From Pythium myriotylum (taxonomy: Eukaryota; Oomycota; Peronosporomycetes; Pythiales; Pythiaceae), in assembly GCA_023091665.1 (NCBI GenBank), contig JALJCQ010000013.1, positions 3,100,001-3,164,000 of the forward strand: 64,000 nt of DNA, read 5' to 3'. The position numbers and the translations under genes are program-made. The notes under the pieces were generated by a model. It was not told where the DNA came from. It searched no databases and worked only from the letters and a program-made list of their open reading frames with translations. Position 1 is the first letter of the stretch, and each line of letters starts with the position of its first letter. Shown piece after piece: positions 25,735-64,000 of this stretch.

Positions 25735-26037
25735 TGTAGCGGGGTACACAAGTTATACTTGCAGTTACATAGGTAGTGTGGTTACATAATTAGGGTGGTC
25801 CACTTAGGGGAAAAGTTACCCTAAGTAGTGACTCAGGTTTATCAGATTTCAGTAGGTAATATCCCCGGTTTATTTACCAGGGATATAGGGCTCTAGGGTT
25901 AATCCTCAGAGAGGATTAATATATGGCAGTTCGCCTTTTGCCAAGTCTTTGGCGCTCGTCGACAGGGGTCGACTCGGAGCGGCTGCTCTCGCTTCCTCCA
26001 AGCGAAGTGCTGTGTAGTGGTCACGTGGACCGCTACA
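25735..26037 (+). repeat. E2 5' LTR
   Basis: 303 bp, starting TGTAGCGGGG and ending GACCGCTACA; identical to the 3' LTR except for one transition. Should contain the promoter and transcript start; a repeated CTAAG/GGTTA-rich section lies in its first half. Several open frames overlap it but all are shadows. Confidence 0.97.
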
Positions 26038-31673: not shown

Positions 31674-32496
31674 CGGCATCTGCCGTGCGGTGAGAAGAGT
31701 CTCGAGAAGGTTGACCTTGAGCAGTCCCCACAGGGTGGGTCAGAAGTGCAGCTTCAATGTCAGCAGTGACTCTGTTGTCGACGTACAACTTGGCGAAACG
31801 AATTCGCATATCACGGAGCTTCTTCACTTCCCCGACGTACGTCGGGCTGCGCATCCGCGCCACGTCGACACGCTTGGTGAGCTCGACCCACCTCCAGAAC
31901 TGAGTGTTGAACTCGTCCGGCGAGCGGCCGGGCTCGACGATAATCGGCACGCCGAAGATCGGTCCACGCTGGTGGTAGCGCCACTGGTTGAATGTCGCTC
32001 GCGACATGTGTCGCTCGGCGAGGGCTTCGCCAATCGTACAGGGAGCACCCAGGCCGAAGTCGTAGGTGCTCACCCTGTCGGCGACGCGGACGGGTGAGTC
32101 CTGGCGAGTCGCAGGCGCTGGGCGCCGTCGATCTGGGCTGTCGAACGCGCCATCGCGGATGTCACGGTGCGTGACCTTTGGCTGAGCCATCAGCAGGCGC
32201 TGCTCTCGCAGGCGCGCCTCGCGCGCGAGCGCCCACTCATCTTGAGCTTGCGGCGTCGGGTCGCGCGGTTTCTCTTCGTCGTGGGTCGGTGGGGCGGTCT
32301 TCCGCTCGCGATACTCACTGGGCGTCATCGTCTTCGCGTCGGCACGCCCGCGAACTTCGCCTTCCTCGACGTCTTCGAGCGCGCGGTCGCGCGGGCGTGG
32401 CGGTGACTCCGCCGGAGGTGGTGAGTTCATCGGTTGGTCTTCGTCGTCGTTGGGGCCGGGGTCGGCAGCGGCCGCTGCGGCTCTTGGGGTGGACAT
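31045..32496 (-). CDS. E2 antisense ORF, 483 aa, unknown function
   Basis: ATG-started frame opposite to gag-pol. Residues 1-274 lie in the non-pol region before the 3' LTR; residues 275-483 lie antisense to the pol C terminus including the chromodomain. Sequence features: a Pro/Arg/Glu-rich disordered N terminus (about 1-130); a compact middle (about 140-265) with GRSPDEFNTQFWRWVELTKR and SPTYVGEVKKLRDMRIRFAK; a coiled-coil-like stretch near the end (FDELQRLAPIVARQEEALWT and on); and a basic SR-type C-terminal region with RRPRSRSRSPAS. No family recognised. It starts 211 bp from the 3' LTR, like the E3 antisense ORF (213 bp). Being open opposite a GC-rich gene can occur by chance, but the 822 nt outside pol has no such excuse. 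Confidence 0.6.
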   Translation of the reverse strand: MSTPRAAAAAADPGPNDDEDQPMNSPPPAESPPRPRDRALEDVEEGEVRGRADAKTMTPSEYRERKTAPPTHDEEKPRDPTPQAQDEWALAREARLREQRLLMAQPKVTHRDIRDGAFDSPDRRRPAPATRQDSPVRVADRVSTYDFGLGAPCTIGEALAERHMSRATFNQWRYHQRGPIFGVPIIVEPGRSPDEFNTQFWRWVELTKRVDVARMRSPTYVGEVKKLRDMRIRFAKLYVDNRVTADIEAALLTHPVGTAQGQPSRDSSHRTADAAIGTTRGGSARARGASRGSPREAPAPQPTNSGTWDIPATSPRSRDSRDTHARDQAIQRGSGESQYGRSPEAARGSVAAPSAWYGYAAPAGLYPAADAQYQLRRDLVDLDDRSREADRWIRSNFDELQRLAPIVARQEEALWTLHRRIEHLERECFDLRQQLGFQQGRRPRSRSRSPASVRSWSAASHQGSRHSGPHPTPPPSPRDEGTA

Positions 32497-36861: not shown

Positions 36862-38222
36862 GCAAGGGGGTTGCTCCTTGTTTCGCGCCCTAAACCGCGA
36901 ATAGCCTGTACAAACGATTAGTCTCGTATATCATTTAGTCACCGCGCAAACTTTGGTGTGCGCCAACCTCACCAGCGCTAACCCGATCTAACACATGTAC
37001 AACAAATTCCGTGGAGATTAGACGGTCCATACCTTTTTATTTGTGGGATTCCTAGGGAGAAAGGGTGCCCTTGACGCCGACGGCATCTCGTACTCACGAA
37101 AGGCGATTGTCCTGTTGTCACTTCGATCCGGATTGTTTTGAAGGCGGAAAGTTTATTAATAAGAGAAAGCAAAGCAGAGGCAATGTCAAACCTCGAACAT
37201 CTACCACTTGCCTAGGGAGAATGCAAGGGACTTGAGCACACGCCGGTGGGTCGCACTACTGGGGCGACGCCCAGTGGCGCATCCTGAGCCGGACCACCGC
37301 GTGGCAGCCATCAAATACAGTTGGTAATCGCGCCGGCCACAATCACAACGGCACCCATCAAACGATGGGTGATCGAGCCGAGCGCAATCACCACGAGAGC
37401 AAACACGTGCACAAGCACTTGGAGAATATAGAGAGTAAACAAGGGATCCCTGCAGAGAACCCGACACAGGAGCCGCCACTGAGCCGGGGGGGGGGGGGGG
37501 GGGGGGGCAAACTTGGTGTGGATGGAGTTGCGCAGCCGCACCGTGAGCCGGGCGCTCACGGTGATGATGCAAGGGCTGATCCAGGGCGACGGACTCAACG
37601 AAAAGCGATCAGACACCCAAGCAGTTGCGACCTTTGTGCGGTCTGAACAAAGGACGAAACGGTAGGTGGGAAGTGAAACTACTTCATGCGCATCTACAGG
37701 AGATTGTCGGGAGGTATCCAAGTGATTTCAATGGAGGCTCAAATATTATTGTATAGCCTAAATTCAATGGATTTTTGTTTTTGCGCAAAGAGCTGCTAAG
37801 ATATGCTAATAATATTGATTATTCACTTCCAGAATCGGCCTGGGGTGGACCTAAATGTTAAAACGCGGTTGGTCGAGCCAATCAGATAGCTGAAATCAGA
37901 ATTATTCATTGGATAAAATGCCATGATGGACCAATTAAAGATCACCAAGTTTTTCAAAAATGTGAATATTCACGTGCACAGGCTACAAAACCTCGGGTCT
38001 CATGAAGTGAGCTGATTCATTGGAAGTGATCCCTACGTCTTGCGCTCTGCCCGAGCACACCAGCTATCAGGTCGCGGCTTGCGCTTCATGCTATGGCTGT
38101 AGGCTCTGTCCGATGCGCGACGTAGAGTGTCAAGGTCTTCATATTGGCTACACCAATCCGGGGAAGCTGGCGAACAGGAAGCCAATGTGCAGAAAGAGCG
38201 GGAGAGCGCGTACACGAGGCAT
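36862..38222. other. Non-coding flank with poly-G tract
   Basis: No gene recognised. A 22-G tract occupies 37486-37507. The minus frame 37721-37311 across it has a hydrophobic end (LVHVFALVVIALGSITHRLM) but no family resemblance. 37740-38000 is AT-rich. The E3 target site GCAT is at 38219-38222. Confidence 0.5.
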
Positions 38223-39240
38223 TGTGGTAAAGCGGCCGAGAATTTTAGGGGCACTAGACCGAGGTGATAGGCAGAGACTCTGGGTAGTACCGTAGGAGGC
38301 TCCAGACTAACCCATACTATTACTATACTCGGTATCAGCCGCCGGTATTACCGGCGGAACCGATACTGAGACGATTGTGCCATCCCATAGCCGATTGGCT
38401 AAAATGGGGGTCGATTGCGTAGCCGAAAGCCGCAGTCATCACCTGAATACAAGGGGGATGATCGGCAGGATACTGGCTGAATCGGCAGAAAAAGGGCATG
38501 TATTCAGCAGTAGTAATGGGTGTAGAGCCGGTAGCGAACTTAGGGCAGCCGAACTTAGCGTAGGGGTAGTTAGATCAGCTGATGAGACCAAGGTAATAGA
38601 CTTCCACTTTCACCGCCAAGCCCGCAAGCAAGCCGCGTCGTCTTGGCAAGGAACGTCGCATCAAGGCTCGCCGTCACCAACAGGAGGTGATGTTAAAGAA
38701 GACCCCGGTGGAACCTGGCTATTGCTGTCAGGGGAAGCCGACGACTCTCAAGCGGCCGACTTGAAGCGCTGGGGCAAGACTGCCAGCGGCGTCGGCTGCA
38801 TCAAGGACAAGGACACTCGTGTGCGCCGGTGGGATCGTCCCCCCGCCACGACAAGGCAAGGTTACGGTCTCTAGTGCTGAGCACTAACAGATCTCACGCC
38901 CCAAGGAAGCCGCAGCCGTCTCATCGGCTGCGCACAAGTACTCCGAGCCCCTGCGTGTTGAGCAGGCGTGTTTCTCGGCCCGGTACGACCCCCGGCCCAA
39001 CTCTGCGAGACGGTCTCCTCGCGGAGCTCAGCTGGCCGACCCCAGAGGCCTCACGACCCTCTGGCTTCCCCTCCCCCGACTTCGGTACCAGAGCGCCCAC
39101 GGTTCACCCCCACAGCGACTTTCGTGGGGTGTAACGTCTGTTGGTAGCTCACTAGCACCAAGAACCCAAGGCCTGTTGGCGAGTGGTCAGCTGTCACAAG
39201 CAGTCGCTGTGCAGTGATTTTGCTGACCCACTCTACCACA
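38223..39240 (+). repeat. E3 5' LTR
   Basis: 1018 bp from TGTGGTAAAG to CTCTACCACA. It contains an open frame of 165 codons (38377-38874) preserved in the other LTR simply because the LTRs are identical; no sign that it is a gene. A related diverged LTR lies at 1-1132. Confidence 0.97.
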
Positions 39241-39270: not shown

Positions 39271-41460
39271 ATGGCATCGAAGTCGAAGAGACCGCCAAGG
39301 TCGAAGTCACCTGTCCAAGCGGTCGCAGGTGACTTAGACTCGAAACGAGCTAGGCCGCAACCGAGTTCTGCTGGAGGGCCCCCAGCTGAGCACGGTGACC
39401 AAGAACATGTCGATCTCGAAGGGCCCCCACGCGTGAGCGTGGTCGAAGGACGGTCGACATCGGGTGACTCCATCACCCGCAACCTCCTCCCAGACCTCGA
39501 CGAAGAAGCCAAGGACGGCGCCAGCGACGTTGGCTCCGAAGACGTCGACCTGAGTGGTGACATCGCGGAGCTGAACGTCGGCGACGACGCGACGGCTCCA
39601 GCGACCCCGATCACCCGTGCCGTCAACTCGGTGCCGGTGAAGATGGATCCCACCAGGCCGACAGCCGTGCCGGCACGGATGATCGAGGTGATCATGTCGA
39701 AGCACGATGGTCTCAAGCACCTCCAGGTGACCCGAGTCAGCGCCGCTGCCGATGTCCGCGACCCTGGCTTCGCGTCGATGAAGACTCAGCAGCAGGTGCT
39801 GCACGGCATCATCGGTGTCTTCAACACCGCCGGGTACAGCGTGACCATCTTGGACAACGCCAAGATCCTCGCGACACGGCGCGACAAGCTGATCGCGGGC
39901 GCTCAGGCGATCTTCGAGCTGTTCCTGCGCCACCAGTCCCAGCGCAAGCTCGAGCAAGCCATCGGTGCGAACCGTGGCGGGCTCATGGATGCTGAATCGC
40001 TGCAGAAGATCGCGGAGCAGGTCATCGGACGCTCCAGGGAAGAAGTCAAGCAGATGGAAGAAGAGATCATGCTGAAGGACAAGATGCTCAAGGATCTCGA
40101 GAACTACCTGCAAGACTTCGCCGACAGGGTCGCATCAGGCGAGCTGACCGCAGCTCAACTTGCGTCAGTGTCGACTGCGGCCGCGCCGACCGTCGCCAGT
40201 GCCGAGGCGAAGCCAACGGTCAAGCCAGAGCCGAAGGTCAAGGCCGAGAAGCCGACTCCAGTCGCTAAGTCGCCGGCAGCCTGGTCTTCGACCGACTACT
40301 TGGCCGACATCTACGACGAGTGCGTCGCGCCAGGCGTTAGCGCCATGACTCGCCTGCGGCAGTCGGCCTGTGCCGATCTGAAGTCGTTCGACGGCAAGTC
40401 TCGCGACGAATATCGCGGCAAGGCCTTCATCAGTTCGGTCCGTTCGGCGTTCCGCCAAGACGAGATGACTGACGGCCAATGCTGCTTGAAGTTCCCCGAG
40501 CTGCTCACTGGCGCGTCGAAGATCTGGTACAAGCAGCTGAAGAAGTCGACTCGTGCCAACTGGTCGCTCCTTCAAACCGAGTTCGAGCGTGAGTACTGCG
40601 GTGCGACGGTCACAGCTCACCAGCGCTACTACGAGCTGCGCCGGAAGCCGAACGAAGAGCACCTCGACTACCTGTACCGACTCAACGTCCAGGCCATCGA
40701 AGCCGGCATCGACTATGAAGGTGCTGCGGCATCCTTCCACGTGACTCACTTCCTCGACACGTGTGAAGACGCCGAGCTCGCACGCCAATTCGGTCTGGCC
40801 AAGCCGACGACGGAGGAGCAGCTTCGTCAAGCGTTGAAGGAGCTGCTGCGCCAGAACCAGCGGTCGAGGCGCGATGAGTCAGCCAAGTTGCGTGCGGACA
40901 AGCGCGACAGCAAACCGAAGCCGTTCATCGCCGGTTCCAAGCAGCGGCCGATCGCCGTCAACGCGTTGGCGAAGCTGCTCGGGTCCTCGAGTCGAGCTGC
41001 CGAAGTCGACCTGTCAAGCGTGTCTGAGTCAAGCTTGGATGGCAGCGAGTCGGAAGACAGCGGAGCTGAAGATGGCGAAGATGCAGCGGAAGCTGCCGGC
41101 TTGGCGACGATGCTGGCGCCCGAGTCCGTGCAGGCGCTGATCAAGCTCGTCGCCGCCCTCCAAGGTCGTGACAGGGTGGGCAAGCCGAAGGGTGAGGTGT
41201 CAAAGCCTCAACACCCATGCTCGCATTGCGGCTCGAAGCGCCATCAAGACCGCGATTGTTGGAGCCGTATCACTTGTACGGTGTGCGGTCGGCTCGGTCA
41301 CCCGGCCGACTATTGCTACCACCGTTGCAAGGGGTGCGGCAATGTCCACGATCGCGGTGCTTGCCCGCTGGAAGAGCTCGCAAATCACCTGAAGGCGTGG
41401 TTCGACCCGACAAAGCACGCTGGCGTCCTGCCGGCGGCCGTCGAAAAGTGGTTAAACTAA
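39271..41460 (+). CDS. gag: E3 Gag polyprotein (729 aa)
   Basis: First ATG after the LTR. An unusually long N-terminal arm of about 340 residues precedes the capsid: Lys/Arg-rich start (MASKSKRPPRSKSP), an acidic stretch, a helical block and a Pro/Lys-rich hinge. The retrotransposon Gag domain follows (about 375-540; AFISSVRSAFRQDEM, IWYKQLKKSTRANWSLLQTE, YYELRRKPNEEHLDYLYRL). A Ser/Asp/Glu-rich segment then leads to three zinc knuckles: CSHCGSKRHQDRDC, CTVCGRLGHPADYC and CKGCGNVHDRGAC. The knuckles bind RNA. The stop TAA (41458-41460) directly follows the slippery heptamer. Confidence 0.92.
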   Translation: MASKSKRPPRSKSPVQAVAGDLDSKRARPQPSSAGGPPAEHGDQEHVDLEGPPRVSVVEGRSTSGDSITRNLLPDLDEEAKDGASDVGSEDVDLSGDIAELNVGDDATAPATPITRAVNSVPVKMDPTRPTAVPARMIEVIMSKHDGLKHLQVTRVSAAADVRDPGFASMKTQQQVLHGIIGVFNTAGYSVTILDNAKILATRRDKLIAGAQAIFELFLRHQSQRKLEQAIGANRGGLMDAESLQKIAEQVIGRSREEVKQMEEEIMLKDKMLKDLENYLQDFADRVASGELTAAQLASVSTAAAPTVASAEAKPTVKPEPKVKAEKPTPVAKSPAAWSSTDYLADIYDECVAPGVSAMTRLRQSACADLKSFDGKSRDEYRGKAFISSVRSAFRQDEMTDGQCCLKFPELLTGASKIWYKQLKKSTRANWSLLQTEFEREYCGATVTAHQRYYELRRKPNEEHLDYLYRLNVQAIEAGIDYEGAAASFHVTHFLDTCEDAELARQFGLAKPTTEEQLRQALKELLRQNQRSRRDESAKLRADKRDSKPKPFIAGSKQRPIAVNALAKLLGSSSRAAEVDLSSVSESSLDGSESEDSGAEDGEDAAEAAGLATMLAPESVQALIKLVAALQGRDRVGKPKGEVSKPQHPCSHCGSKRHQDRDCWSRITCTVCGRLGHPADYCYHRCKGCGNVHDRGACPLEELANHLKAWFDPTKHAGVLPAAVEKWLN

Positions 41461-41499
41461 GCCGCCCGCCAGTTTGGGGACTGGTACGCGCCGGGCGGC
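41451..41499 (+). promoter_or_regulatory. Programmed -1 frameshift signal of E3
   Basis: GTTAAAC (41451-41457) reads G TTA AAC in the gag frame, directly before the TAA stop. GTTAAAC is a known functional slippery site in arterivirus ORF1a/1b. Three nt later starts a hairpin: GCCGCCCG (41461-41468) pairs perfectly with CGGGCGGC (41492-41499), and inside it CCAGT (41469-41473) pairs with ACTGG (41480-41484). Pol lies exactly in the -1 frame. Confidence 0.82.
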
Positions 41500-44400
41500 G
41501 ACCCGAGGTCGCAGTGTTCTATAACCAGAAGTCCCATCGCCAAACCATCGTAAGGGCGCAGATCGACGACCATAACGCGAGGGTCCTGTTGGACTCGGGC
41601 GCTGAGGTCTCGATCCTCGACTCCGACTTTGCGCGTAAGATCGGAGCCGAGGTAGACACCAGTGTGTCTCTGCACTGCGAAGGTGTTGGAGGATCCGGCT
41701 GTCCCACCGAGGGCCGGGCCTGGATAAAGGTGGTGCTGGCCGGCGAGCTGGCGTACCAGGCCGAGGTCTGGGTCGGTCGCCTTGGCAACGTTCAGGCGAT
41801 TCTCGGTACCGACTTCATGACCCCGGCCGGCATCCGCCTCGACTTGGCCGAAGGCGTCGCCCTCATGCCGGACGAAGTTCGCGTCCAGTTTGAGGGCCGC
41901 CGAGCCGTCTACAGTGACAAGGCAGAGCAAGTCAGGGTCAAGCGAGAGGTGACGATCCAGCCAGGCGCGTCACACTACCTGCGGATCAAGCCGAACGCCT
42001 CCAAGAAGCTGTGGGTCTGCCGCGACGAACGCTGGGTCACGACTGCCGAGTGCAACGAGCGTGGCCTGCCGACGCGGGTCAAGGTGACCAACATCTTCAC
42101 GGTGCCGGTCACCTTGCCCACGCAGACGATCGTTGGCCTCTGGCTGAGCTCGGGCGCCGCACCTCGACGCTCCGGATACGTCTCTCTGGGCTCGAGGCGG
42201 TACGACGAGTGGTGCACCCTCGTGTACGAGGCCGAGCCCGAACCGGAGCTTGAGGCACGGCGCCAAGCTGAAGCCAACGCGATCCGGGCTGCGCAGCCAC
42301 CGGCGGTCGAACGACGCCCGTATGTGGTGCCGCGCGCGATCTTGAAGCGTGCCGACGCCGCGGTGGCGACGCCGCCGAGGGCGGGTGACTCGAGGAGTGA
42401 GCTCAAGGTCTCCGTCGAGGACACGCATGAAGGTGCGACATCCGGCGACGAAGACCAAGGCGACGTCACGACGAAGCCGAGAGCCGGACGGCGTGTCGTC
42501 ATGACGAAGATGACGACGTCCGACTGGGCCAAGGTGGCGATACTCTTCGTCGCAGCCAAGTCCCCGGCCGAAGTCGTCGATGGTCAAGCCGAGCTGAGCG
42601 AAGCAGTCTACGTGCATGAAGGAGGCGATGTCAGTGCTGAAGACATCGACGGCCAGATGGCCATGATCCCAGAAGTCCCGGCTGGGGACGACGAGATCAC
42701 GCCTGCCGACATCAAGATCGCGGCTGGCGAAGATGTCAGTGCTGAAGACGTCGAGCGTGTCCGCGAGATGGTGTGGAGGCGACGCCCGTACCTCATGGGT
42801 AAGGGCAATGCTCGGCCGTTGCCGGCCAAAGGCGTCGTCTGCGACATAGACGTCGGCGACGCCAAGCCCATCACTCAATCGTGCCGCAAGGTGCCGCCAC
42901 AGTACGTGGAGAAGCTCTACGAGCTCCTTAAGGGACTTCTCCAGGCGGGCTTCATCGCGCCATCGACATCGGCTTGGGCGTCTCCCATTGTGATCGTCGT
43001 CAAGAAGAACGGTGTTGATATTCGCCTCTGTATCGATTACAGAATGGTGAACGCCCTCACTAGGCTGATGGTCTACCCTATGCCTGTCGTTCATGACCTG
43101 TTGGAAAATCTCGGCTCGCTACGATGGCTTTGTTCACTAGATATGGCGTCAGGATTCTGGGTCGTGCGAATGACTGCACGGGCTCGGGCGATTTCGGCTT
43201 TCGTGACACCCTTCGGGTTGTTTGAGTGGCTAAGGATGCCGTTCGGGTTGAAAAACGCTCCCCAGATATATCAACGGCTTCTTGATAACGCGCTCTATGG
43301 CTACCTGAAGCTGACGCCCAAGCACCTGCAGGACAAGGAAGCTGATGTGTTCGAAGATGGCAAGCCGGCCGGAGCCGAGACGCGACCAGCGATAGGTCGA
43401 AGATCGTATATTGACGACATCTTGTTCGGCGGCGAGACTTGGGATCAGATGTGTGAGCGGCTGGAGAGATTGCTGCAGGCCTGCGAGGAGTGGGGGCTTT
43501 CGATCAGCCTCCCGAAGAGCGAGTTCGGCATGAGCCGTGTCGACTACCTAGGGCACTCGGTTTCCGCGGAAGGCATCAGAGCGAAGCCGAAGAACCTCTC
43601 CGAGCTGCTGCAACTCGAGTTTCCTAAGACTCTGAAGGGGATTCAGTCGTATTTGGGCTCTCTGAACTATTATCATCAGTTTATTGAGCACTTTGCGGTC
43701 TATGCGGCCGCACTCTACGAGGTTACCCAGGCAGACTTGGCCAAGGATGCGCTAGAGCCCGGTCATCTCGCGTCTGCTCGACGGGCCTTCGCAGAGCTCC
43801 AGCAGAAGTTGGCGAATGCGCCGATCCTGAGGCACTTCGACGCCGAGAAGCAGCCAGTGGTCATCATTTACTCGAATCCGTGGGCTGTCGCTGCCACACT
43901 GGCGCAGGAACACGATGGGAAGCTGATGCTGGTGAAGTTCTTCAGCAGGGTGCTGAAAGTCCACGAAGCCAAGTTCTCGCCAGCCGAGAAGGAGATCCTT
44001 GCTCTGCTCCACGTGCTGTCCGGAGCGGCGAGTATGCTGAGTGGCCGCGCTATCCAGGTGCTGACGCGGTTCTCCACGTTCGGTTGGTTGTTCAAGGCGA
44101 AAGGTCTTCAAGGTCGTTTGGAGCGGTGGGCTACTGTGCTGAGTTCATGGACGCTCGAGATCGTGAAGGTCAAGAAGGACGAAGATGGCTTGAGCGGATT
44201 GGTCGCAGCCGCCACGGGCCCTGCGGACAAGATGGACGAGATGCTTGGCGATATTCAGCCGAGGAAACGCGTCGTGGGCGAACGACATCGACTGCCCGTG
44301 CCGTCATTAGCGAAGAACGAGGCCGCGTGGGTCGTGTCTTTCGATGGATCGGCGAAGCCGAAGCGGAATGGGGCAAGTTGCGGCGCCATCCTGTGGTCGT

Positions 44401-47143
44401 TGCCGACGTGGAAGATTGTCGCCGCCGAGACGTGTTTCTTCGCCGACGGAACGGTTAATGAAGCCGAGTACAGAGGTGCTATAGCTGCCATGGATCTGGC
44501 TACACGACACGGCGTCCAGGATGTGATCGTCTGCGGCGACTCCCGCATCGTGATTCAGCAGCTGAGAGGTGACATCGAGTGCCGTACAGCAGGGCTCCAG
44601 GTTCTACGCGCCGAGGCGCTGGCGAAGCTGAGCGTGTTCAAGTCGGCTTACCTCGTACACGTCGCTCGAGACTTCAATGCCGCCGCCGACCTCATCACGG
44701 GCAAGGCGCTGCAGCGCTGTGCCGGCGGAGTCGTCGACCCGGCCGAGCATGCCGGTATGAGAATGCTGAACCGCCTCCCTGAAGTCCTCAGGCCGAGTGA
44801 AGACGAGCCGGCTGCGGCTGTCCACGTGGTGACGCGCGGTGGTGCTGCCACGGGCGCCGATCATGGCCAAGACGCGACTCGACAGCACGAGGAGGCTGAA
44901 GGGCAAGCGGGGAGCGGTGATCGAGCTCACGGGCGTCGCCGGCGACGCACAGGCGAAACTAGCGGAGTCGAGGGAGCTGTGGCATCGCCACAGTCGACAG
45001 AGATCAACGAAGACGTTGACGGAGCGACGGGGCGCACGGGCGCACGTACGGCGAATAGCCGGGACGTTCCAACGCTCCAGCACCCTGAAGAGTGGCGTGG
45101 GAATACGAGCGACGGGGCGTCCACAAGCGACCCGAGCCGGCGAGTCGCGTTCGATCTTCCAGCAGTCGGCAGTGAAGCTCCAGACGATTCCGTCGATCGT
45201 CCAGCAGTGCGCGAGCGTCCAGCTATCAACGAACGTCTGCCTGCTGACGCGATGGCTACAGCTGAGAAGGGCACCGATGGACGCGTCGCCAAGGCTCGAG
45301 AGTCAGTTGAAGATTCAGCGATGTACCCAAGGGACATAGCCAGGCGCGGTGCGCATCATCAAGGAGCGACACGGCCAGATGATGACGAATCCAGTATCGC
45401 AATCAATGATGACGCGAACATAGCCAAGGCGGACGGTGCGCACTTCGGCGTTGATCAGCGTGATGACTGCGCAAGCCCGTGGGACACTTCGCGGGACCCG
45501 ACAGTTGAGTCCAGCACGGCGTGGGTCGAGCGACTGCGCGCGGAGCGCATCTCGACGGCGCAAGACGAAGAACGATGGAGCGCCAACGTCAAGCGCTTCC
45601 TCGCGGGCGACGTCGCCGCGCTCAGCGACCAAGAGCGCGCGGCGTGCGAGAAGCTCGCAACGTCGTATGAAGTCGTCGATGGCTTGCTGTACTACGTCGG
45701 CTACCAGAAGGCGAAGGATCGAGAGCGACGCGAGCTGCGCCTCCGTCTCGTCGTGCCGTCTACTCTACACCGTGAAGTCCTGCATCACTACCATGTCAGC
45801 TTGGCCGGCGGCCACCAAGGGGTGAGTCGCGTGTACGAGAAGGCCCGCCGTTATCTATTCTGGAGGAATATGTACGCTGACGTTCGCGACTACGTGGCTG
45901 CGTGCCCAGATTGCCAGTCCGGCAAGGGTCAGCCGCGGATTCAAGTCCCGTCGCCGGGGAATATCGTCGCGACTCGGCCATTCGAGGTGGTCGGCATGGA
46001 CCACGTACCGTCGTTGCCTAAATCGCATCGCGGGAACACCGAGCTCTTAATTTGGGTGGATCAGCATACGGGCTTCGTCATCGTATCGGCAAACCGGTCT
46101 CGAGAGGCTCAAGAAGTGGCGGAGTCCTACGAGCGTTGCGTGTACAGGCGCTTCGGTGCGAGCCGAGTCATTCGACACGACCGCGAGTCGGCATTTATGT
46201 CGGCCGTCTTCCGCGCGTTCAATCGATTGATCGGCCAGAGGAGCCGTGCTACGCTCGCCTATCGGCCCCAGTCTAACGGCATGACGGAGCGAATGGTACA
46301 GACGGTCGTCCACGCCGTCAAGCTCTATGTGTCCGATCCTCAGCAAAGAGACTGGGACGATTACGCAGAACGTCTCACGATCGCGTCCGCGGCGACTCGC
46401 CATTCTACCTGCTACACGGGTGGGAGCCTCGAACGACTCTCGAATCTGTGCTGCCGACGGCAGACCAAGACGGCCACGCCGATGCGAGACGATGGCGATC
46501 GGCCGTCCAGATCCAGTACCAGAAGGCACGGCAAGACGTGGTTCGGCTACTTCGTCAAGCGATGGAAGAGCGTCGAGAGGCGAGCGAGTCAGCAGCCCGC
46601 GGCGACACGTCCGCGATAGTCCCGGGCGCTAAGGTGTGGGTCTACATTGACCAAGTCAAGCCAGGTTTCGCACGTAAACTCGCACATCTATGGCACGGCC
46701 CATTCAGAGTGCTAGAGCGACCGGCCACGCACTTGGTCAAGCTGGAGATCGAGGGCTCGACTTACCGTATCTTCCCCACCGTTCACGTCTCGCGCTTGAA
46801 GCTGTGGCGCAGCTTCGAAGATCGCCCCATCACAGAGCTGGAAGTTCCAGCTGACGCTCGACTCGACTTCGACGAGGCGCTGCTTCCCGAAGACTCGCTC
46901 GAGCCGGACAACGACGAAGGACATTACGAGGTCGAGGCGATTATCGGCCACCGCGGCGTACGCTCTGCTCGCCAAGGGCGGCCTATTCGCGAGTACCACG
47001 TGAAGTGGGTCGGCTGGGACTCGACAGACTGGATCGCCGAAGACGACATGAACGCGCCGAGCCTCATCGAAGAGTACGAGCGACAGCTGCGCGCCGAAGG
47101 ACGCTTTGCCGCGATGGCGACCGAGGTCGAAGAGGAGGAATAG
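41457..47143 (+). pseudogene. pol: E3 Pol (protease-RT-RNH-aRNH-integrase-chromodomain), one frameshift
   Basis: Frame continues from the slip site. Protease DSGAEVS at 41592; RT with CIDYRMVNAL, FGLKNAPQIYQRL and YIDD at 43407-43418. About 35 extra residues (LTPKHLQDKEADVFEDGKPA onward) sit between the LLDNALYGY helix and YIDD. The first RNase H (about 43800-44070) has lost its Asp pattern (VIIYSNPWAVAATLAQ). A second RNase H follows (44325-44710): SFDGSAKPKRNGASCG (Asp at 44343), NEAEYRGAIAAM, VCGDSRIVIQQL, RDFNAAAD. Integrase: HHCC (VLHHYHVSLAGGHQG..CPDCQ), D45999, D46179, E46287 (D-35-E). At about 46380-46394 the frame shifts by -1 with apparent loss of several codons; it then continues to the GPY/F module and a chromodomain (HYEVEAIIGHRGV, YHVKWVGWDSTDWI) ending at 47143. 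Confidence 0.92.
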
Positions 47144-47460
47144 TACTCGGCCAGCTGCGCAGTGATCAACGCCGTCCAGGAGGCGGCGTCCGATGCTGTG
47201 CGGCTCCGAGTTGGCGTAACTAACGCCCGGGTTAGTCAGGTCATTGCCCTGGCTAGCTGACTGCGGCGAGGTTGTGGCCGGTGGGAGGCACCGGCAAGTC
47301 ATTTGGTGGACATGCATATTGTATAACGTGACGTGAAAAGATGAAGGTGACAAGTTCGACTGCCTATGGATCAAGTGAAGAAGAGGGAAACGGAGTGATC
47401 ATTACGATTATCTGCGAAGACGATTTCCTATGGTGTTCAACTGCTACCAAGCTAACAGCG

Positions 47461-50208
47461 CTAGATCTGTGCAGGAGCGGCCTTCCCTGGGCTGGTACTC
47501 GAAGCTTCAGCAGTCGACCCGGCACGGGGCGCATCAGCGGTAGCGGGAGGCAGTAGGCTCGAGGGAGCCGCTGACGGCTTGGCAGACGCGGGCGTGGTCG
47601 GTCCTTGAGGCGCCAAGCTGCTTGAAGGCGAAGGTGTGCGACCGCCAGCAGCGGTCGGCGCGTCGGCTCCTGTGCGACCCGACGGCTTCGTAGTATCGGC
47701 AGGTTGAGATTTGGTCGTGGCCCCGCTGGACGTCTTCGGCTTGCCGCTGCTCATGGGCGACGAAGGAGCGCTCTTCGTGCGCCGTGGCTGCTCATCTGTC
47801 GTCAAATCGTCGTCGCTCTCCTCCACGCCGTCTTTCTCCTCCTCATCGGAGGAGACCTCGAGGCGCTTCCGCTTCCCTGACGCACGGCTCGACGCCGACG
47901 GAGACGACGGGGCACTCTTGGACGGCGAATCGCGCCAGAACTTGTGGTAGATACGGCTGCGCACCGAGTGGGAAGGGTGAGCCTCCGGCTTGAGCAAGAA
48001 GAAAGCACGCTCTGGTTCGGCTTGATCGACACGATCAGCAGCTGCAAGCACAGTCTCGTTGGGCATCGGCAGCAGGTACACAGTGCCAATCGGCGGAGCA
48101 ATGAGGAAGAAGGGGTCCAATAGTAGATCGGCGTCGATGTCGGGATTGTCGTCAAGAAACTTCGACAGGCGCCGACAATGGGCCTTGACTTGAGTCTTCG
48201 TAGTCGAGTGCCGCTGCTTGCGCTCCTCGCGCCACTGACGATCGATCGACGACGGCACGACCAGGTAGTGCGTCCGCTCGTAGAAGGTGCGAATCACCAG
48301 CCTGTAAAAGGCCATGGTCTCAGTGTAGAGCCCCACGAAACGATCGTCGGCATAGTTGAAGGTGATCGGCTTGGGGATCATCTTCAGGAACTTCTTCCAC
48401 CGACCCGCGGCATTCCAAAGGGTGATCTCAGCAGCGCCGACGTTGAGGCGAGCATTGGCCTCTGTGAGGAATTTCGTATCTTGGTTGTAGTTCGGGGCCA
48501 CGGCTTCGCAAGGGAACAAGCCCAACCGCCACGCGAGTCGCTCGATCTGATCAGCCGACAACGTCGAAGGCGGTCCACTTTCCGGCCATCCAGCTGCCCA
48601 GATCGGATAAGACTCGCGCATCGAGTTCAAGGTCGACTGAGAGACGTAGTTGGCGCCTCTCTCGGCCGACGGGCCCACGGTAGTGGCTGAAGACTTGCGG
48701 CCCTGATTCTTCGGCACCGGTGATCCACGCGAGTCGGTGAGATCCACGACGTCCTGGGGAGTCGGATCCGGTGAAGGTTGGCTCTGCGGCTGCGCCGCGA
48801 CAGCAGCCCCCTCTCGGTTCTTCTTCGCCTTCTTCTTCGTAGGTGCCTTCGTGCCCGCCGGCGCAACACGACCAGAGACAGCGGCGTCCGGGCTCGGGCT
48901 GCGGGCGGAGTTGCCGCCTCGCGCCTGCAACGACGGAGCCGCGCTGGCCGAAGAGTCGCCCGATGAGCCTAGCTGTCCGGCGATAGTGCCGCCGAAGCCG
49001 CCACCAAAGAGGGAGTCCTGCTCGAACAGCGACTCGAGCTCGCCGCCGCCAAGATCTTTCAAGAACTGCTCGATGTCGTCGTCTGGCCGAAGATTCTCAA
49101 TCTTCTCCATAAGACGAGTGCAATCGTTGACGATCTTCTGCCGTATCATGAACGTGTCGGTGGGCACGGAGGGGTCGGCCTTCGATATCTCGGCAGCCAT
49201 CGTGGTCAAGGCATCCGATCCGTTGATCCGAAAGCCGTCCGGTGTGAGGCGTGATACCAGTTGATCAAAGACAGGCGTCAAGAACCCCAGGTTGACACGA
49301 GGAGCCGAAGGGTTCGCTTCGCCGCGAAGCCTGTTGAGGACACCGAGAGCCGTCGACGTTGCGCCTGCCTCGCGAAAACCAGTGAGCAAGACAGGGCCGA
49401 TCAGCTTTTCATACTTGAGCAAGGCGGGTCGCGCTTGGGCCAAGATCGCCTGTAGGAACGCGATGGTCACGGCATCGGCCGTCATCCGCCGACGAATTGC
49501 TCCTACCGTGCCGAAGCCGCGGTAGTTCGCAATCTCCTGGTTCACCTCACGGAGCGAGCCCAGACTGCCGAGGCGCCTGTAGGCCTTGTACTTCTGCTCG
49601 AGATCCGCTTGCTCCGCCGTCGCAGCTGCGGCCACTTTCTCAGCCGCGTCGAGCCGGTCGCGCAGTGAATCGCGCTCCTGGGTTACAGTCTTCAGCGTCA
49701 AGGCGTCACGCTCGCGCTCATCGCGATAAAGCTCGAGTCGACGGCGAAGGTCAGCCACCTCGTCAGGAGCAGAGGTCGACGAAGGAGCATTCGCAGGTGG
49801 AGGACTAGCAAGTTGTCGACTGGCCTCAGCCTGGGCACCGGAGTCAGCTAGAGAACGGAGGCGGGCGGCACGACGGACGGCAGCGATGTGTAGACGCACC
49901 TTTGACCGTTCAAGTTCTTCGAGGCGCTGAGCCTTGGCCCGCAGGTCAACGAGCTCGACGTCCGCACTCTTCACTCGCGCCTTCAACGAGGCGAGCTCGG
50001 CAGCGAGCGTGCTGCTCACAGACTCGAGGAAGCTTGAGCAGGCGTCGGAAGACTGAAGAGCGGTCGAGGCGCGTTCCAACAGCGTAGTCAACCCGCGTAG
50101 TTGCTCGACGGACAGCGGGACTGTCAGGTCAGAAATCGCCTCGAACAGATCACCCGCGACGCCTGCCAGCTTAGAGCGCGCGAGTTTGACCAAGCGCGCC
50201 TCACTCAT
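47461..50208 (-). CDS. E3 antisense ORF, 915 aa, unknown function
   Basis: A single uninterrupted ATG-started frame on the strand opposite to gag-pol, filling most of the space between pol and the 3' LTR and not overlapping pol. Regions: residues 1-120 and 150-225, heptad-rich coiled coil (SLKARVKSADVELVDLRAKA; LYRDERERDALTLKTVTQER); about 225-390, helical block (GFGTVGAIRRRMTADAVTIA and on); about 400-520, low complexity with DVVDLTDS, which resembles a SUMO-interacting motif; about 530-750, folded-looking segment rich in Trp/Tyr (YPIWAAGWPESG; WKKFLKMIPKPITFNYADDR; RTHYLVVPSSIDRQWREERK); then a Ser/Pro/Lys tail with a nuclear-signal-like GKRKRLE and an acidic patch. No family recognised. 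It starts 213 bp inside the 3' LTR, so an LTR-borne antisense promoter could drive it. Absence of stops in 2.7 kb in a young element argues for function. Confidence 0.8.
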   Translation of the reverse strand: MSEARLVKLARSKLAGVAGDLFEAISDLTVPLSVEQLRGLTTLLERASTALQSSDACSSFLESVSSTLAAELASLKARVKSADVELVDLRAKAQRLEELERSKVRLHIAAVRRAARLRSLADSGAQAEASRQLASPPPANAPSSTSAPDEVADLRRRLELYRDERERDALTLKTVTQERDSLRDRLDAAEKVAAAATAEQADLEQKYKAYRRLGSLGSLREVNQEIANYRGFGTVGAIRRRMTADAVTIAFLQAILAQARPALLKYEKLIGPVLLTGFREAGATSTALGVLNRLRGEANPSAPRVNLGFLTPVFDQLVSRLTPDGFRINGSDALTTMAAEISKADPSVPTDTFMIRQKIVNDCTRLMEKIENLRPDDDIEQFLKDLGGGELESLFEQDSLFGGGFGGTIAGQLGSSGDSSASAAPSLQARGGNSARSPSPDAAVSGRVAPAGTKAPTKKKAKKNREGAAVAAQPQSQPSPDPTPQDVVDLTDSRGSPVPKNQGRKSSATTVGPSAERGANYVSQSTLNSMRESYPIWAAGWPESGPPSTLSADQIERLAWRLGLFPCEAVAPNYNQDTKFLTEANARLNVGAAEITLWNAAGRWKKFLKMIPKPITFNYADDRFVGLYTETMAFYRLVIRTFYERTHYLVVPSSIDRQWREERKQRHSTTKTQVKAHCRRLSKFLDDNPDIDADLLLDPFFLIAPPIGTVYLLPMPNETVLAAADRVDQAEPERAFFLLKPEAHPSHSVRSRIYHKFWRDSPSKSAPSSPSASSRASGKRKRLEVSSDEEEKDGVEESDDDLTTDEQPRRTKSAPSSPMSSGKPKTSSGATTKSQPADTTKPSGRTGADAPTAAGGRTPSPSSSLAPQGPTTPASAKPSAAPSSLLPPATADAPRAGSTAEASSTSPGKAAPAQI

Positions 50209-50408
50209 CTGCAGAACGGTGTGAGCAAGCGAACACCTCCATGATGACCGGAGAAGGAGCGATGCGTACCGTCAAGGGGAGACCGGAGGAGAAGACGAAG
50301 TGAAGGGGCCGAAAGCTGTGCGGCTGCTCCAACGGCGTGATCGGCTGATGTGTGGTGACTCGGCCAAGAGGAGTTCTCCCATCACCCAAGGTCTGCGACC
50401 AGGCCGAC

Positions 50409-50418
50409 GGGAGACGGG
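50409..50418 (+). other. Candidate E3 polypurine tract
   Basis: GGGAGACGGG lies 3 nt before the 3' LTR (50422). It is interrupted by one C, so the call is weak, but no better purine run is adjacent. Confidence 0.35.
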
Positions 50419-50421
50419 CGC

Positions 50422-51439
50422 TGTGGTAAGGCGGCCGAGAATTTTAGGGGCACTAGACCGAGGTGATAGGCAGAGACTCTGGGTAGTACCGTAGGAGGCT
50501 CCAGACTAACCCATACTATTACTATACTCGGTATCAGCCGCCGGTATTACCGGCGGAACCGATACTGAGACGATTGTGCCATCCCATAGCCGATTGGCTA
50601 AAATGGGGGTCGATTGCGTAGCCGAAAGCCGCAGTCATCACCTGAATACAAGGGGGATGATCGGCAGGATACTGGCTGAATCGGCAGAAAAAGGGCATGT
50701 ATTCAGCAGTAGTAATGGGTGTAGAGCCGGTAGCGAACTTAGGGCAGCCGAACTTAGCGTAGGGGTAGTTAGATCAGCTGATGAGACCAAGGTAATAGAC
50801 TTCCACTTTCACCGCCAAGCCCGCAAGCAAGCCGCGTCGTCTTGGCAAGGAACGTCGCATCAAGGCTCGCCGTCACCAACAGGAGGTGATGTTAAAGAAG
50901 ACCCCGGTGGAACCTGGCTATTGCTGTCAGGGGAAGCCGACGACTCTCAAGCGGCCGACTTGAAGCGCTGGGGCAAGACTGCCAGCGGCGTCGGCTGCAT
51001 CAAGGACAAGGACACTCGTGTGCGCCGGTGGGATCGTCCCCCCGCCACGACAAGGCAAGGTTACGGTCTCTAGTGCTGAGCACTAGCAGATCTCACGCCC
51101 CAAGGAAGCCGCAGCCGTCTCATCGGCTGCGCACAAGTACTCCGAGCCCCTGCGTGTTGAGCAGGCGTGTTTCTCGGCCCGGTACGACCCCCGGCCCAAC
51201 TCTGCGAGACGGTCTCCTCGCGGAGCTCAGCTGGCCGACCCCAGAGGCCTCACGACCCTCTGGCTTCCCCTCCCCCGACTTCGGTACCAGAGCGCCCACG
51301 GTTCACCCCCACAGCGACTTTCGTGGGGTGTAACGTCTGTTGGTAGCTCACTAGCACCAAGAACCCAAGGCCTGTTGGCGAGTGGTCAGCTGTCACAAGC
51401 AGTCGCTGTGCAGTGATTTTGCTGACCCACTCTACCACA
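50422..51439 (+). repeat. E3 3' LTR
   Basis: 1018 bp, TGTGGTAAGG to CTCTACCACA, followed by GCAT. Two differences from the 5' LTR noticed. Confidence 0.97.
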
Positions 51440-51443
51440 GCAT

Positions 51444-58842: not shown

Positions 58843-59861
58843 TAACAGACAATGTGAGTGACTCAGAGACGGCCGTGTCGAGCTTGTGTATTGGACTGAC
58901 GATCACCATGGACTGCGCTCTAGACATTCATTTACACTGCATCTCATTCGTCACGTGGCGGTTTATATTGGGAGGCGATTGCTTGCTTGACCGCGTACAT
59001 TCCGCTCAATCGAGCGTGACGAAGAAACCAGTGTTGAGCTTTCGCCCAACATTGCCGCTTGCGGAAAACTTTTTCTTTTCCGAGGTCGCAACCTTGTCAA
59101 ACGTCTTACTGGAAATGCAAGCGTTCGTTGTCTTGTCTTCAGTCGGAGTTGCCCGAACATACTTCAGGAGATATTTTGAGGTACCCTCCACACTGAATAG
59201 CGTTGTTCGCCCTGGCTTCACCATCTTTTGAGCTGCAGTGATCACATCATTCGCTGGCTTGGGTGAGAAATTGAAACACTTGTCAGCGCCAGAATCTTCC
59301 GGCCAACCACTGACGTATAAAATACTCTCGGAAACCCGTAAGCTCCAGGAGACGTTGCCAGCGGAGGAGCTCCGTCGCGTATTTGCGTAAACTCTTCCAA
59401 GGAGAAAGCATAATGCATGTCGTTGACTCTCGTCATGGTCACCATACGGAGAGAAGAGTGGAGGTGCCTTCTCTTCTTCCACACATTGTAGAGTACATGG
59501 CGAAGAAGTGCCTGGTCTATTCGAAGTCGCCACCCACCCAGCCGATGATGACCAGCCCCCCCCCCCCCCCCCCCCTCCCCAGGCCTCCCCCTGGGTCCCT
59601 GGCAGAACCTGGCTGAGAAAAATAGGAGTAACAACCGTTTTTGAGTATAATCTGTGGTTGGTGAGGTGGTAGTATCCATGGCACAGTGTACCACTCACCT
59701 GGTACCACCCGAAACATGCTATAAAAGAAGGTAGTTCCTAGATCTAGTCACAAAAATAGCAAGGAACATTGAGAGCCAGCTCCACTGGCTCTCTTAGGGG
59801 GCTAGCCCACTTCGCTTTTTACCGTAAACCGCAATCGTCAGCTCAAGCCCCAGGGAGGACG
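58843..59861. other. Unassigned region with poly-C tract and hairpin
   Basis: The longest frame is 59698-59006 (minus, 230 codons), which runs through a Gly tract created by C20 at 59556-59575 and shows no recognised domain. At 59771-59793 GAGAGCCAG and CTGGCTCTC form a 9-bp hairpin with a 5-nt loop. No gene can be supported. Confidence 0.45.
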
Positions 59862-60688
59862 TGCACTCGGGGGGCCTCGTTCGCACTCACTCGGTGAACA
59901 ATGCGTATCGAAGCACGCACGCCACGCGTCAATATGTATCACCCCGACTTGGTTTGCACGCATACCCGATCGTCCATGCCGACAGTCGAGCACGAGGATC
60001 CTCTGACACCGATGTGCCTACCTCAAAATCTGCGATGTCGCTCTGCTTTGCAGCCCGCATCCCATCCTCCCCCACGCCTCCGTTCTAACATTTGACTTGA
60101 GCTGGAGCGCAAGAGTGATCGTGAGCGCGAGCGTCAGCCCAAGCGTCGCCCCGAACGTGAGGCCGAGCATGAGTGTGAAACGCGAGACCACACTGCTCGA
60201 TACCCGCGCATATACCAGTACCTGGTCGTGGGGCTATGGCAGTCCTAGGGCCATTCGGAGGGCCGTCGGTCGCAGCTCCAAGTCGCAGAACTTCGGATCG
60301 GTCCAGAAAGCTCACTTCGAGTCCGTTGGGGTCATTTGTTGTACCGCATCCCCTGTCGCGCTGGACATCAGCTCAATGACTCTATCAATCTGACGTGATG
60401 TGTTGCGCAATGTTTTGGAATATTTCGGTAGCGCAGTGAGCCTCGGGTGTGGTGGGGTGATTAGTAGTGAAGTGTGCAGTGGTTGTGCGCCAGAGAGGTG
60501 TGTGTGAGTGTGTGAGTGTGTGAGTGTGTGTGTGGTCTACTTGTGTGTGGGATTGGTTGTAGTTTTGTTGGTTGTTGTGTGTCTGCGGTGTAGTGTATGG
60601 TGTTGGCGGTGTTGTGGTTGTGGTATTGTTGTTGTGTGTAGTTTGTCGGTGTTTGTTATGGCTGTGAGGGCTAGGAAATGGTTATCGC

Positions 60689-60760
60689 GGCCGCGTGGTC
60701 TAGTGGTATGATTCTCGCTTCGGGTGCGAGAGGTCCCGGGTTCGATTCCCGGTGCGGCCC
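60689..60760 (+). tRNA. tRNA-Pro (CGG), copy 1
   Basis: 72 nt, folding as a cloverleaf: acceptor GGCCGCG with TGCGGCC (one G-U), discriminator C, anticodon loop TTCGGGT giving anticodon CGG, T loop TTCGATT. A box TGGTCTAGTGG and B box GGTTCGATTCC are present, no intron, no encoded CCA. A T5 run at 60762-60766 is the Pol III terminator. Confidence 0.97.
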
Positions 60761-60910
60761 CTTTTTGCTCCAGATCCTTTTTACTCCATTTCACCACCTC
60801 GCAACACACCTGCACTGCACTGCGCCTCCATCAACACACACTAACACCACCCACTCCAGCCAGTCTCCCATACCACTCCCGCACATTCGCCGTGGGACAC
60901 ACACTGTCCC

Positions 60911-60984
60911 ACTCGACACTCGCCACTCGCCACTCGCCACTCGCCACTCGACACTCGCCACTCGCCACTCGCCACTCGACACTC
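60911..60984. repeat. 7-bp minisatellite (ACTCGCC/ACTCGAC)
   Basis: About ten copies of ACTCGCC or ACTCGAC in head-to-tail order. The same tract recurs in units 2 and 3 (near 62252 and 63595) and is two units shorter in unit 3. Confidence 0.9.
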
Positions 60985-62029
60985 CGCGCCTCGGACGCTC
61001 CGGGTTGTCCATCCCCCCTTGGTCTCCCTTCGATTTCTTGGGTCTCTCCTGACCTTTCGCCTGGACTTGGTCGTCCGCCCCCTTTCCTGGTCCCGTCACG
61101 CGACCGCAGTTCTTGCTTTTGATGTTCATCTTCGCCGTCGGTGCTGTCTGGCGTGTCTGTCGATGTGGTCGAAAGGACCGCACTCGACCCACGACTCCCA
61201 CATGCACTCGGGGGGCCTCGTTCGCACTCACTCGGTGAACAATGCGTATCGAAGCACGCACGCCACGCGTCAATATGTATCACCCCGACTTGGTTTGCAC
61301 GCATACCCGATCGTCCATGCCGACAGTCGAGCACGAGGATCCTCTGACACCGATGTGCCTACCTCAAAATCTGCGATGTCGCTCTGCTTTGCAGCCCGCA
61401 TCCCATCCTCCCCCACGCCTCCGTTCTAACATTTGACTTGAGCTGGAGCGCAAGAGTGATCGTGAGCGCGAGCGTCAGCCCAAGCGTCGCCCCGAACGTG
61501 AGGCCGAGCATGAGTGTGAAACGCGAGACCACACTGCTCGATACCCGCGCATATACCAGTACCTGGTCGTGGGGCTATGGCAGTCCTAGGGCCATTCGGA
61601 GGGCCGTCGGTCGCAGCTCCAAGTCGCAGAACTTCGGATCGGTCCAGAAAGCTCACTTCGAGTCCGTTGGGGTCATTTGTTGTACCGCATCCCCTGTCGC
61701 GCTGGACATCAGCTCAATGACTCTATCAATCTGACGTGATGTGTTGCGCAATGTTTTGGAATATTTCGGTAGCGCAGTGAGCCTCGGGTGTGGTGGGGTG
61801 ATTAGTAGTGAAGTGTGCAGTGGTTGTGCGCCAGAGAGGTGTGTGTGAGTGTGTGAGTGTGTGAGTGTGTGTGTGGTCTACTTGTGTGTGGGATTGGTTG
61901 TAGTTTTGTTGGTTGTTGTGTGTCTGCGGTGTAGTGTATGGTGTTGGCGGTGTTGTGGTTGTGGTATTGTTGTTGTGTGTAGTTTGTCGGTGTTTGTTAT
62001 GGCTGTGAGGGCTAGGAAATGGTTATCGC

Positions 62030-62101
62030 GGCCGCGTGGTCTAGTGGTATGATTCTCGCTTCGGGTGCGAGAGGTCCCGGGTTCGATTCCCGGTGCGGCC
62101 C
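62030..62101 (+). tRNA. tRNA-Pro (CGG), copy 2
   Basis: Identical to copy 1 at a distance of 1341 bp, with the same T5 terminator at 62103-62107 and identical flanks. Confidence 0.97.
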
Positions 62102-63372
62102 CTTTTTGCTCCAGATCCTTTTTACTCCATTTCACCACCTCGCAACACACCTGCACTGCACTGCGCCTCCATCAACACACACTAACACCACCCACTCCAG
62201 CCAGTCTCCCATACCACTCCCGCACATTCGCCGTGGGACACACACTGTCCCACTCGACACTCGCCACTCGCCACTCGCCACTCGCCACTCGACACTCGCC
62301 ACTCGCCACTCGCCACTCGACACTCCGCGCCTCGGACGCTCCGGGTTGTCCATCCCCCCTTGGTCTCCCTTCGATTTCTTGGGTCTCTCCTGACCTTTCG
62401 CCTGGACTTGGTCGTCCGCCCCCTTTCCTGGTCCCGTCACGCGACCGCAGTTCTTGCTTTTGATGTTCATCTTCGCCGTCGGTGCTGTCTGGCGTGTCTG
62501 TCGATGTGGTCGAAAGGACCGCACTCGACCCACGACTCCCACATGCACTCGGGGGGCCTCGTTCGCACTCACTCGGTGAACAATGCGTATCGAAGCACGC
62601 ACGCCACGCGTCAATATGTATCACCCCGACTTGGTTTGCACGCATACCCGATCGTCCATGCCGACAGTCGAGCACGAGGATCCTCTGACACCGATGTGCC
62701 TACCTCAAAATCTGCGATGTCGCTCTGCTTTGCAGCCCGCATCCCATCCTCCCCCCCACGCCTCCGTTCTAACATTTGACTTGAGCTGGAGCGCAAGAGT
62801 GATCGTGAGCGCGAGCGTCAGCCCAAGCGTCGCCCCGAACGTGAGGCCGAGCATGAGTGTGAAACGCGAGACCACACTGCTCGATACCCGCGCATATACC
62901 AGTACCTGGTCGTGGGGCTATGGCAGTCCTAGGGCCATTCGGAGGGCCGTCGGTCGCAGCTCCAAGTCGCAGAACTTCGGATCGGTCCAGAAAGCTCACT
63001 TCGAGTCCGTTGGGGTCATTTGTTGTACCGCATCCCCTGTCGCGCTGGACATCAGCTCAATGACTCTATCAATCTGACGTGATGTGTTGCGCAATGTTTT
63101 GGAATATTTCGGTAGCGCAGTGAGCCTCGGGTGTGGTGGGGTGATTAGTAGTGAAGTGTGCAGTGGTTGTGCGCCAGAGAGGTGTGTGTGAGTGTGTGAG
63201 TGTGTGAGTGTGTGTGTGGTCTACTTGTGTGTGGGATTGGTTGTAGTTTTGTTGGTTGTTGTGTGTCTGCGGTGTAGTGTATGGTGTTGGCGGTGTTGTG
63301 GTTGTGGTATTGTTGTTGTGTGTAGTTTGTCGGTGTTTGTTATGGCTGTGAGGGCTAGGAAATGGTTATCGC

Positions 63373-63444
63373 GGCCGCGTGGTCTAGTGGTATGATTCTC
63401 GCTTCGGGTGCGAGAGGTCCCGGGTTCGATTCCCGGTGCGGCCC
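63373..63444 (+). tRNA. tRNA-Pro (CGG), copy 3
   Basis: Identical to copies 1 and 2, 1343 bp after copy 2 because of two extra C in the flank; terminator T5 at 63446-63450. Confidence 0.97.
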
Positions 63445-64000
63445 CTTTTTGCTCCAGATCCTTTTTACTCCATTTCACCACCTCGCAACACACCTGCACT
63501 GCACTGCGCCTCCATCAACACACACTAACACCACCCACTCCAGCCAGTCTCCCATACCACTCCCGCACATTCGCCGTGGGACACACACTGTCCCACTCGA
63601 CACTCGCCACTCGACACTCGACACTCGACACTCGACACTCGCCACTCGACACTCCGCGCCTCGGACGCTCCGGGTTGTCCATCCCCCCTTGGTCTCCCTT
63701 CGATTTCTTGGGTCTCTCCTGACCTTTCGCCTGGACTTGGTCGTCCGCCCCCTTTCCTGGTCCCGTCACGCGACCGCAGTTCTTGCTTTTGATGTTCATC
63801 TTCGCCGTCGGTGCTGTCTGGCGTGTCTGTCGATGTGGTCGAAAGGACCGCACTCGACCCACGACTCCCACATGCACTCGGGGGGCCTCGTTCGCACTCA
63901 CTCGGTGAACAATGCGTATCGAAGCACGCACGCCACGCGTCAATATGTATCACCCCGACTTGGTTTGCACGCATACCCGATCGTCCATGCCGACAGTCGA

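Follow-up and report, generated by a model that had tools for sequence, protein, structure and literature searches.

Antisense open reading frames (aORFs) located between pol and the 3′ LTR have been described in the plant elements Grande, RIRE2, Retand and PvRetro13 (PMC7264820), and 97% of the recently active Retand clusters encode the TRP28 domain (PMC11963269). The Grande aORF has a nuclear product, and a regulatory role has been proposed for the plant Tat-lineage aORFs (Grande, RIRE2, Retand), which are long and carry coiled-coil-type annotations. Outside plants, Boty of Botrytis cinerea has been named as an element with an antisense aORF (PMC7264820), and the HTLV antisense genes, such as HBZ, are read from the 3′ end and have a nuclear regulatory product (PMC11963269). 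In both cases the likeness to the locus presented here is one of description, and for HTLV no relation is claimed. The oomycete elements that come closest are the Chronos elements, which combine a dual RNase H with a chromodomain (Ustyantsev et al. 2017, PMC5348765). The main text of that paper contains neither the word "antisense" nor "additional ORF", and a literature search by title and opening lines of the abstract, mostly among freely available papers, turned up no description of an antisense gene in an oomycete element.

We analyzed a 64,000-nt window of the Pythium myriotylum genome that contains a gypsy LTR element, E3, with an antisense gene at this position (Table 1). The LTR ends were set exactly by base counting, and the two LTRs differ at positions 38231 and 38887 only. 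Because of these two mismatches and the flanking 4-bp target duplication we consider E3 to be young, in agreement with the initial annotation, which had placed the gene inside a very young gypsy element. By Pfam, E3 pol has two RNase H domains, and the chromodomain follows the integrase in the next frame. In the unaligned translation, read by eye, the catalytic residues of the first RNase H look degraded and the set in the second looks complete. Judged by its architecture, we take E3 to be a Chronos-type gypsy element: it shares with the described Chronos elements a dual RNase H and a chromodomain that closes pol, and it adds an antisense gene to that description. The window also holds a tandem array (59859-64000) of 1,329-1,343 bp units that are mostly 99-100% identical and run off its end.

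Table 1. Features of element E3 in the window (aORF, antisense open reading frame)
Feature	Position	Strand	Basis or remarks
5′ LTR	38223..39240	+	TG...CA, 1,018 bp; target duplication GCAT at 38219-38222
gag	39271..41460	+	Retrotrans_gag E 8e-5, just below Pfam cut-off
pol: protease, RT, two RNase H, integrase	41217..46619	+	ORF list and Pfam
polC: end of pol in another frame, with chromodomain	46448..47143	+	PF00385 E 2.3e-7, above cut-off
Stretch between the stops of pol and aORF	47144..47460		Pairwise copy comparison
aORF: antisense accessory gene, 915 aa	47461..50208	-	ORF, dN/dS, shuffles
Conserved core of aORF, residues 520-770	47899..48651	-	dN/dS 0.06-0.22 in four pairs; aligned in FA, FB, F48
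Coiled-coil stretch of aORF, residues 34-199	49612..50109	-	Outer limits of high-scoring windows
VVDLTDS motif in aORF linker	48730..48750	-	VDLT present in FA too
Putative 61-nt intron GTACGC...TGCAG, ending at aORF ATG	50209..50269	-	Predicted from sequence signal
Initiator-like TCACTTC, 95 nt before aORF ATG	50297..50303	-	YCAYTYY in 7/7 copies; motif per PMC3599244
3′ LTR	50422..51439	+	Target duplication GCAT at 51440-51443

The initial annotation had described an uninterrupted 915-aa frame on the strand opposite to pol, lying between pol and the 3′ LTR without overlapping pol, and this was confirmed. The aORF begins with an ATG and runs for 915 codons without interruption (936 between flanking stops), and it is separated from the sense polC/chromodomain frame, which stops at 47143, short of the aORF limit at 47461. 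HBZ overlaps other frames, unlike the E3 aORF, which is clear of pol. The GC content of the E3 antisense region is 0.61, and high GC stretches random frames, but the probability that the aORF is open by chance or reflects codon bias is negligible: in 1000 dinucleotide-preserving shuffles of the 3,275-nt region 47144-50418 the longest frame averaged 217 codons and never exceeded 462, there is no sense gene opposite, and dN/dS is low, as reported below.

When the E3 protein was used as a query, at least 53 places in this genome were matched, some at just 30-43% identity. Inspection of both flanks at 11 such places placed the aORF directly behind the chromodomain in 10; the eleventh (C17:3081k) is a decayed piece without pol on the expected side. 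With five antisense proteins as queries, 107 of the 126 matches listed in this genome were antisense and no more than 6 kb downstream of an integrase-chromodomain, three were in sense orientation (two fragments of 33 residues each and a fragment from a copy with indels), and the other 16 had no chromodomain nearby. These 126 are the best or selected matches from each query table (53 of 53, 16 of 40, 6 of 8, 5 of 6 and 46 of 48 listed), the 24 dropped from the table of 40 being places already on the E3 list or small fragments. That LTR elements capture genes is known (PMC7264820), but a host gene recently captured by E3 is extremely unlikely, with the aORF at the same place in many diverged families and no full-length stand-alone copy among the 16 listed matches that lack a nearby chromodomain.

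We also took the chromodomain as the starting point, using 116 of 132 listed matches and leaving out 16 further fragments. Among the matches listed, 69 of the 116 chromodomains were accompanied by an antisense match, and the share by chromodomain identity to E3 was 15/16 at ≥88%, 8/8 at 67-70%, 7/9 at 56-65%, 11/15 at 47-51%, 19/27 at 42-46%, 8/16 at 40-41% and 1/25 at ≤39%. Three chromodomain regions without an antisense match were opened, and long sense frames were found in two and only shorter ones in the third. A second RNase H lay upstream of the chromodomain in all 14 hand-picked representatives (11 with the antisense gene and three without), a check that used roughly the stronger two thirds of 150 listed matches. 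The initial annotation had treated the aORF as a feature of E3, where it is indeed present, but this was too narrow, as the gene recurs across many chromodomain gypsy families. We conclude from its shared place and orientation in many Chronos families of this genome that the aORF is old.

Other arrangements were seen in this genome. Sense frames occupy the aORF position in two families of dual-RNase-H chromodomain elements, one of more than 1,000 codons (L040:1479-4490, plus strand; chromodomain 40% identical to E3) and one of more than 800 codons with a sub-threshold Myb-like Pfam match (L038:2037-4448, plus strand; chromodomain 37% identical). Eight copies of the 37% chromodomain family lie within G000:C22:648483-804403 in both orientations, mostly spaced at about 21.4 kb, which represents either a duplicated block or an assembly effect.

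Compared with E3, the sister family FA shows about 63-76% identity in most segments of pol and gag and about 31-51% in aORF segments, with 39% identity of the aORF over the alignment, and the antisense protein thus evolves faster than gag and pol, yet holds its position. Antisense frames also follow the chromodomain in F48 (958 codons), F45 (721 codons, with open frames of about 1,000 codons in other F45 copies), F41 (1,119 codons), F43 and F40, and protein identity between distant aORF families is 17-39%. Profile comparison joined E3/FA/FB with F48 in the core (E 2.7e-7). Further matches in the core linked E3/FA/FB with the F45/F43/F40 group (P 0.0014) and with F41 (P 0.0018), and F41 with the F45 group (P 0.0009); the best match of the F45 group to F48 (P 0.0008) fell instead in the coiled coil. 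Controls with gag, the sense ORF and shuffled sequences gave best values of 0.24-0.61, and the reversed control gave 0.023. Because the links to F45, F43, F40 and F41 are suggestive, it is likely, not proven, that the antisense genes of these Chronos families form one protein family. Three FA copies (L010, L011 and L013) are truncated immediately 5′ of the antisense gene and continue into a common, 98% identical flank with ORFs, of which the one scanned (L010:3813-5642) has a Crinkler N-terminal domain that, like the Chronos architecture, fits an oomycete host; these are segmental duplications carrying the element together with effector-like genes.

Selection on the aORF was assessed at 12 E3-family places, 11 of them near full length (E3, L002-L008 and L029-L031) and one partial (L032). 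Against E3, the eight copies that had 20 or more synonymous changes gave a dN/dS of 0.17-0.29 (L003 0.23, L004 0.17, L005 0.22, L006 0.21, L007 0.26, L008 0.19, L030 0.29 and L031 0.23) and the partial copy gave 0.21, while the two closest copies, with only 5-6 synonymous changes, gave 0.62 (L002) and 0.40 (L029). When the same substitutions were placed at random in six of the pairs, none of 500 trials per pair reached the observed nonsynonymous share. The remaining reading frames of the region had dN/dS values of 0.98-2.47 in four pairs, with the exception of the mirror frame (0.22-0.29), whose third positions coincide with those of the aORF and which holds 26-27 stops. Within the protein the core is the most constrained part; the linker evolves fast (0.28-0.63) and the tail, residues 770-915, is little constrained (0.42-0.62). 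As a yardstick, the chromodomain frame gave 0.11-0.20 in four copies and 0.62 in two.

The initial annotation had named a dN/dS near 1 and stops or frameshifts at a neutral rate in most copies as evidence against the gene. The first is contradicted by values of about 0.2. On the second the picture is mixed, since 9 of the 11 near-full-length copies carry a stop or a frame-breaking indel (E3 and L002 are lesion-free), but internal stops, counted by hand, numbered six where about 13 would be expected at random from six permuted copies. These lesions are the ordinary decay of inserted or dead transposon copies. We conclude that the aORF is a coding gene under purifying selection at the amino-acid level in E3's family. 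Its retention by selection, both among copies and across numerous distant sister families, makes it very probable that the aORF yields a protein used by the element. That the antisense RNA alone matters and the frame is a passenger is very unlikely: non-coding antisense RNAs of LTR elements are known (PMC7264820), but what is preserved here is amino-acid sequence, both in the selection within E3's family and in the identity kept between families.

Two local patterns accompany these comparisons. Copy L008 (G000:C8:1470692-1475680) is very close to E3 in its chromodomain part (dS 0.025) but has a diverged aORF (dS 0.136), which suggests recombination between copies. The stretch 47144-47460 is just 2.5-4.1% divergent in three copies with an aORF dS of 0.14-0.18; constraint, perhaps from the 3′ ends of both transcripts, or recombination could underlie this pattern.

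The coiled coils proposed in the initial annotation were recovered, as the best heptad score of the E3 aORF (a simple score of our own) was not reached in 100 shuffles. The same was true in 7 of 8 families, the exception being F41, where 11 of 100 shuffles scored as high. E3 has four NLS-like K/R motifs (459, 462, 663 and 779) against 1.2 expected by shuffling; one lies at the start of the tail, which the initial annotation had called nuclear-signal-like, and the others lie in the linker and core. Such motifs occur in 7 of 8 families, with none in F43 and counts barely above shuffles in F45, F41 and F40. The linker motif VVDLTDS is what we take to be a SUMO-interaction-like motif.

As had been noted initially, no domain is recognized in the E3 protein at the Pfam cut-off; it and five other family proteins gave sub-threshold names only, mostly coiled coils. 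Against PDB sequences, E3 alone gave a weak match to zearalenone hydrolase (E 0.24) and the family profiles gave weak matches only, mostly to coiled coils. Protein-database searches, each scoring the roughly 8,000 candidates with most shared words, found no relatives elsewhere. Scans of viral contigs found none either, which says little because the pol scan was empty as well. Predicted alone and without an alignment, the core had a mean pLDDT of 33. Homology of the aORF core to gag, and of the aORF to the sense third ORF or the E1 antisense ORF (see below), was rejected because profile comparison gave no match. Retand aORFs carry TRP28 (PF04195), whereas the E3 aORF and five family proteins have no match to it at E up to 1; the plant Tat elements belong to a different host kingdom and to an RT lineage distant from Chronos (PMC5348765). 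The comparison with the Tat lineage made in the initial annotation is therefore apt as an analogy, with the same antisense position and no common domain found: the E3 aORF may work like the Retand-type genes, and, because TRP28 was not found, there is no evidence that it belongs to them.

We considered whether the selected product is an Env- or Gag-like protein, structural or part of the particle, that is expressed in antisense. The aORF lies where an env gene would be, and structural proteins often have coiled coils, but we regard this reading as quite unlikely given the antisense orientation, a lack of env or gag domains by Pfam and of a gag match for the core, and no strong membrane segment in seven sequences (highest 19-residue hydropathy 0.94-2.02; E3 1.72). 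A product that blocks silencing of the element, countering double-stranded RNA formed by the opposed transcripts, is unlikely as well. From the anatomy, the antisense transcript would complement the 3′ part of the genomic RNA, and the fast-evolving linker fits such a role; however, Pfam identified no silencing-suppressor domain in six proteins, the core is strongly constrained, and the averaged dN/dS carries no sign of positive selection.

Signals that may direct antisense expression were found in the leader. The oomycete initiator consensus is YCAYTYY (PMC3599244), and the E3 heptamer still fits it in 7 of 7 E3-family copies examined, although by a rough estimate one such motif would occur by chance in about one 210-nt leader in five and is not rare. 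E3 and FA have the heptamer TCACTTC in common, 118 and 113 nt from the LTR, respectively (for FA, in the four copies with a retained leader). Elsewhere the consensus is present at -32 in F48 and twice beyond -330 in F41, and it is absent from the 400 nt preceding the F45 start. Both ends of the putative E3 intron are kept in 7 of 7 copies. In FA, a 58-nt GTGAGT...TTAG stretch is present in 7 of 8 copies, and its removal brings an upstream ATG into frame; because FA copies are recent and three of these seven are segmental duplicates, its sharing is weak evidence of constraint. Under a single rule, an intron-like signal was found on the antisense strand of 4 of 5 leaders (F48 being the one without) and on the opposite strand of 0 of 5, compared with 2.4-6.8% per leader in shuffles, which is support and not proof because the rule was set after seeing E3, FA and F45. 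These signals lend partial support to an antisense promoter and a 5′ intron in the Chronos aORF unit. Such an intron would survive retrotransposition, since the RNA that is copied would be the opposite strand, and the predicted introns offer a clean test, being removable from antisense RNA only.

Taken together, we propose that E3 comprises two opposed transcription units, with gag-pol read from the 5′ LTR and, in the space that separates pol from the 3′ LTR, an antisense unit of its own. The latter would encode an accessory protein of about 770-1,110 aa in which a variable linker connects a coiled coil to a conserved core. The antisense unit most likely starts at the initiator just inside the 3′ LTR and would have a small 5′ intron. 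Its product is most likely a nuclear protein that associates with itself and regulates transcription, RNA or chromatin of the element that encodes it. As a whole, the explanation of an ambisense Chronos element with an old, selected antisense gene for a coiled-coil and probably nuclear regulator is one we hold with moderate confidence. The role taken alone, self-association in the nucleus and regulation of the expression or chromatin of the element itself, is a tentative assignment.

A second, unrelated gypsy element with a chromodomain, E1, lies in the window (300-bp LTRs at 25735 and 32708, one mismatch). Near its 3′ end is an antisense ORF of 483 aa (31045-32496, minus strand), which overlaps the sense frame 31035-31673 and has residues 1-274 outside the overlap. 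Residues 1-483 were matched at twelve places, 10 of them stop-free (four of the 10 in a tandem series), and a relative 69% identical over residues 1-463 is also open. Because E1 has its own antisense gene at the same place, antisense accessory genes may be a general strategy in this genome.

A bolder possibility, which we offer as speculative, is that Chronos is a true ambisense clade, with an independent, intron-bearing antisense gene that encodes a protein family without known relatives and is needed for propagation, and that a dual RNase H and an antisense gene were joined twice, in plant Tat and in oomycete Chronos elements. If true, the pairing would hint that the second RNase H is functionally tied to the presence of opposed transcripts. 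Antisense genes between pol and the 3′ LTR have so far been known mainly from plant elements, where their role is unknown (PMC7264820, PMC11963269). That a protein family of another kind occupies this position in a different kingdom, and is clearly under purifying selection, is an argument for such genes being functional, and the oomycete aORFs provide a comparison set for the antisense genes of plants.
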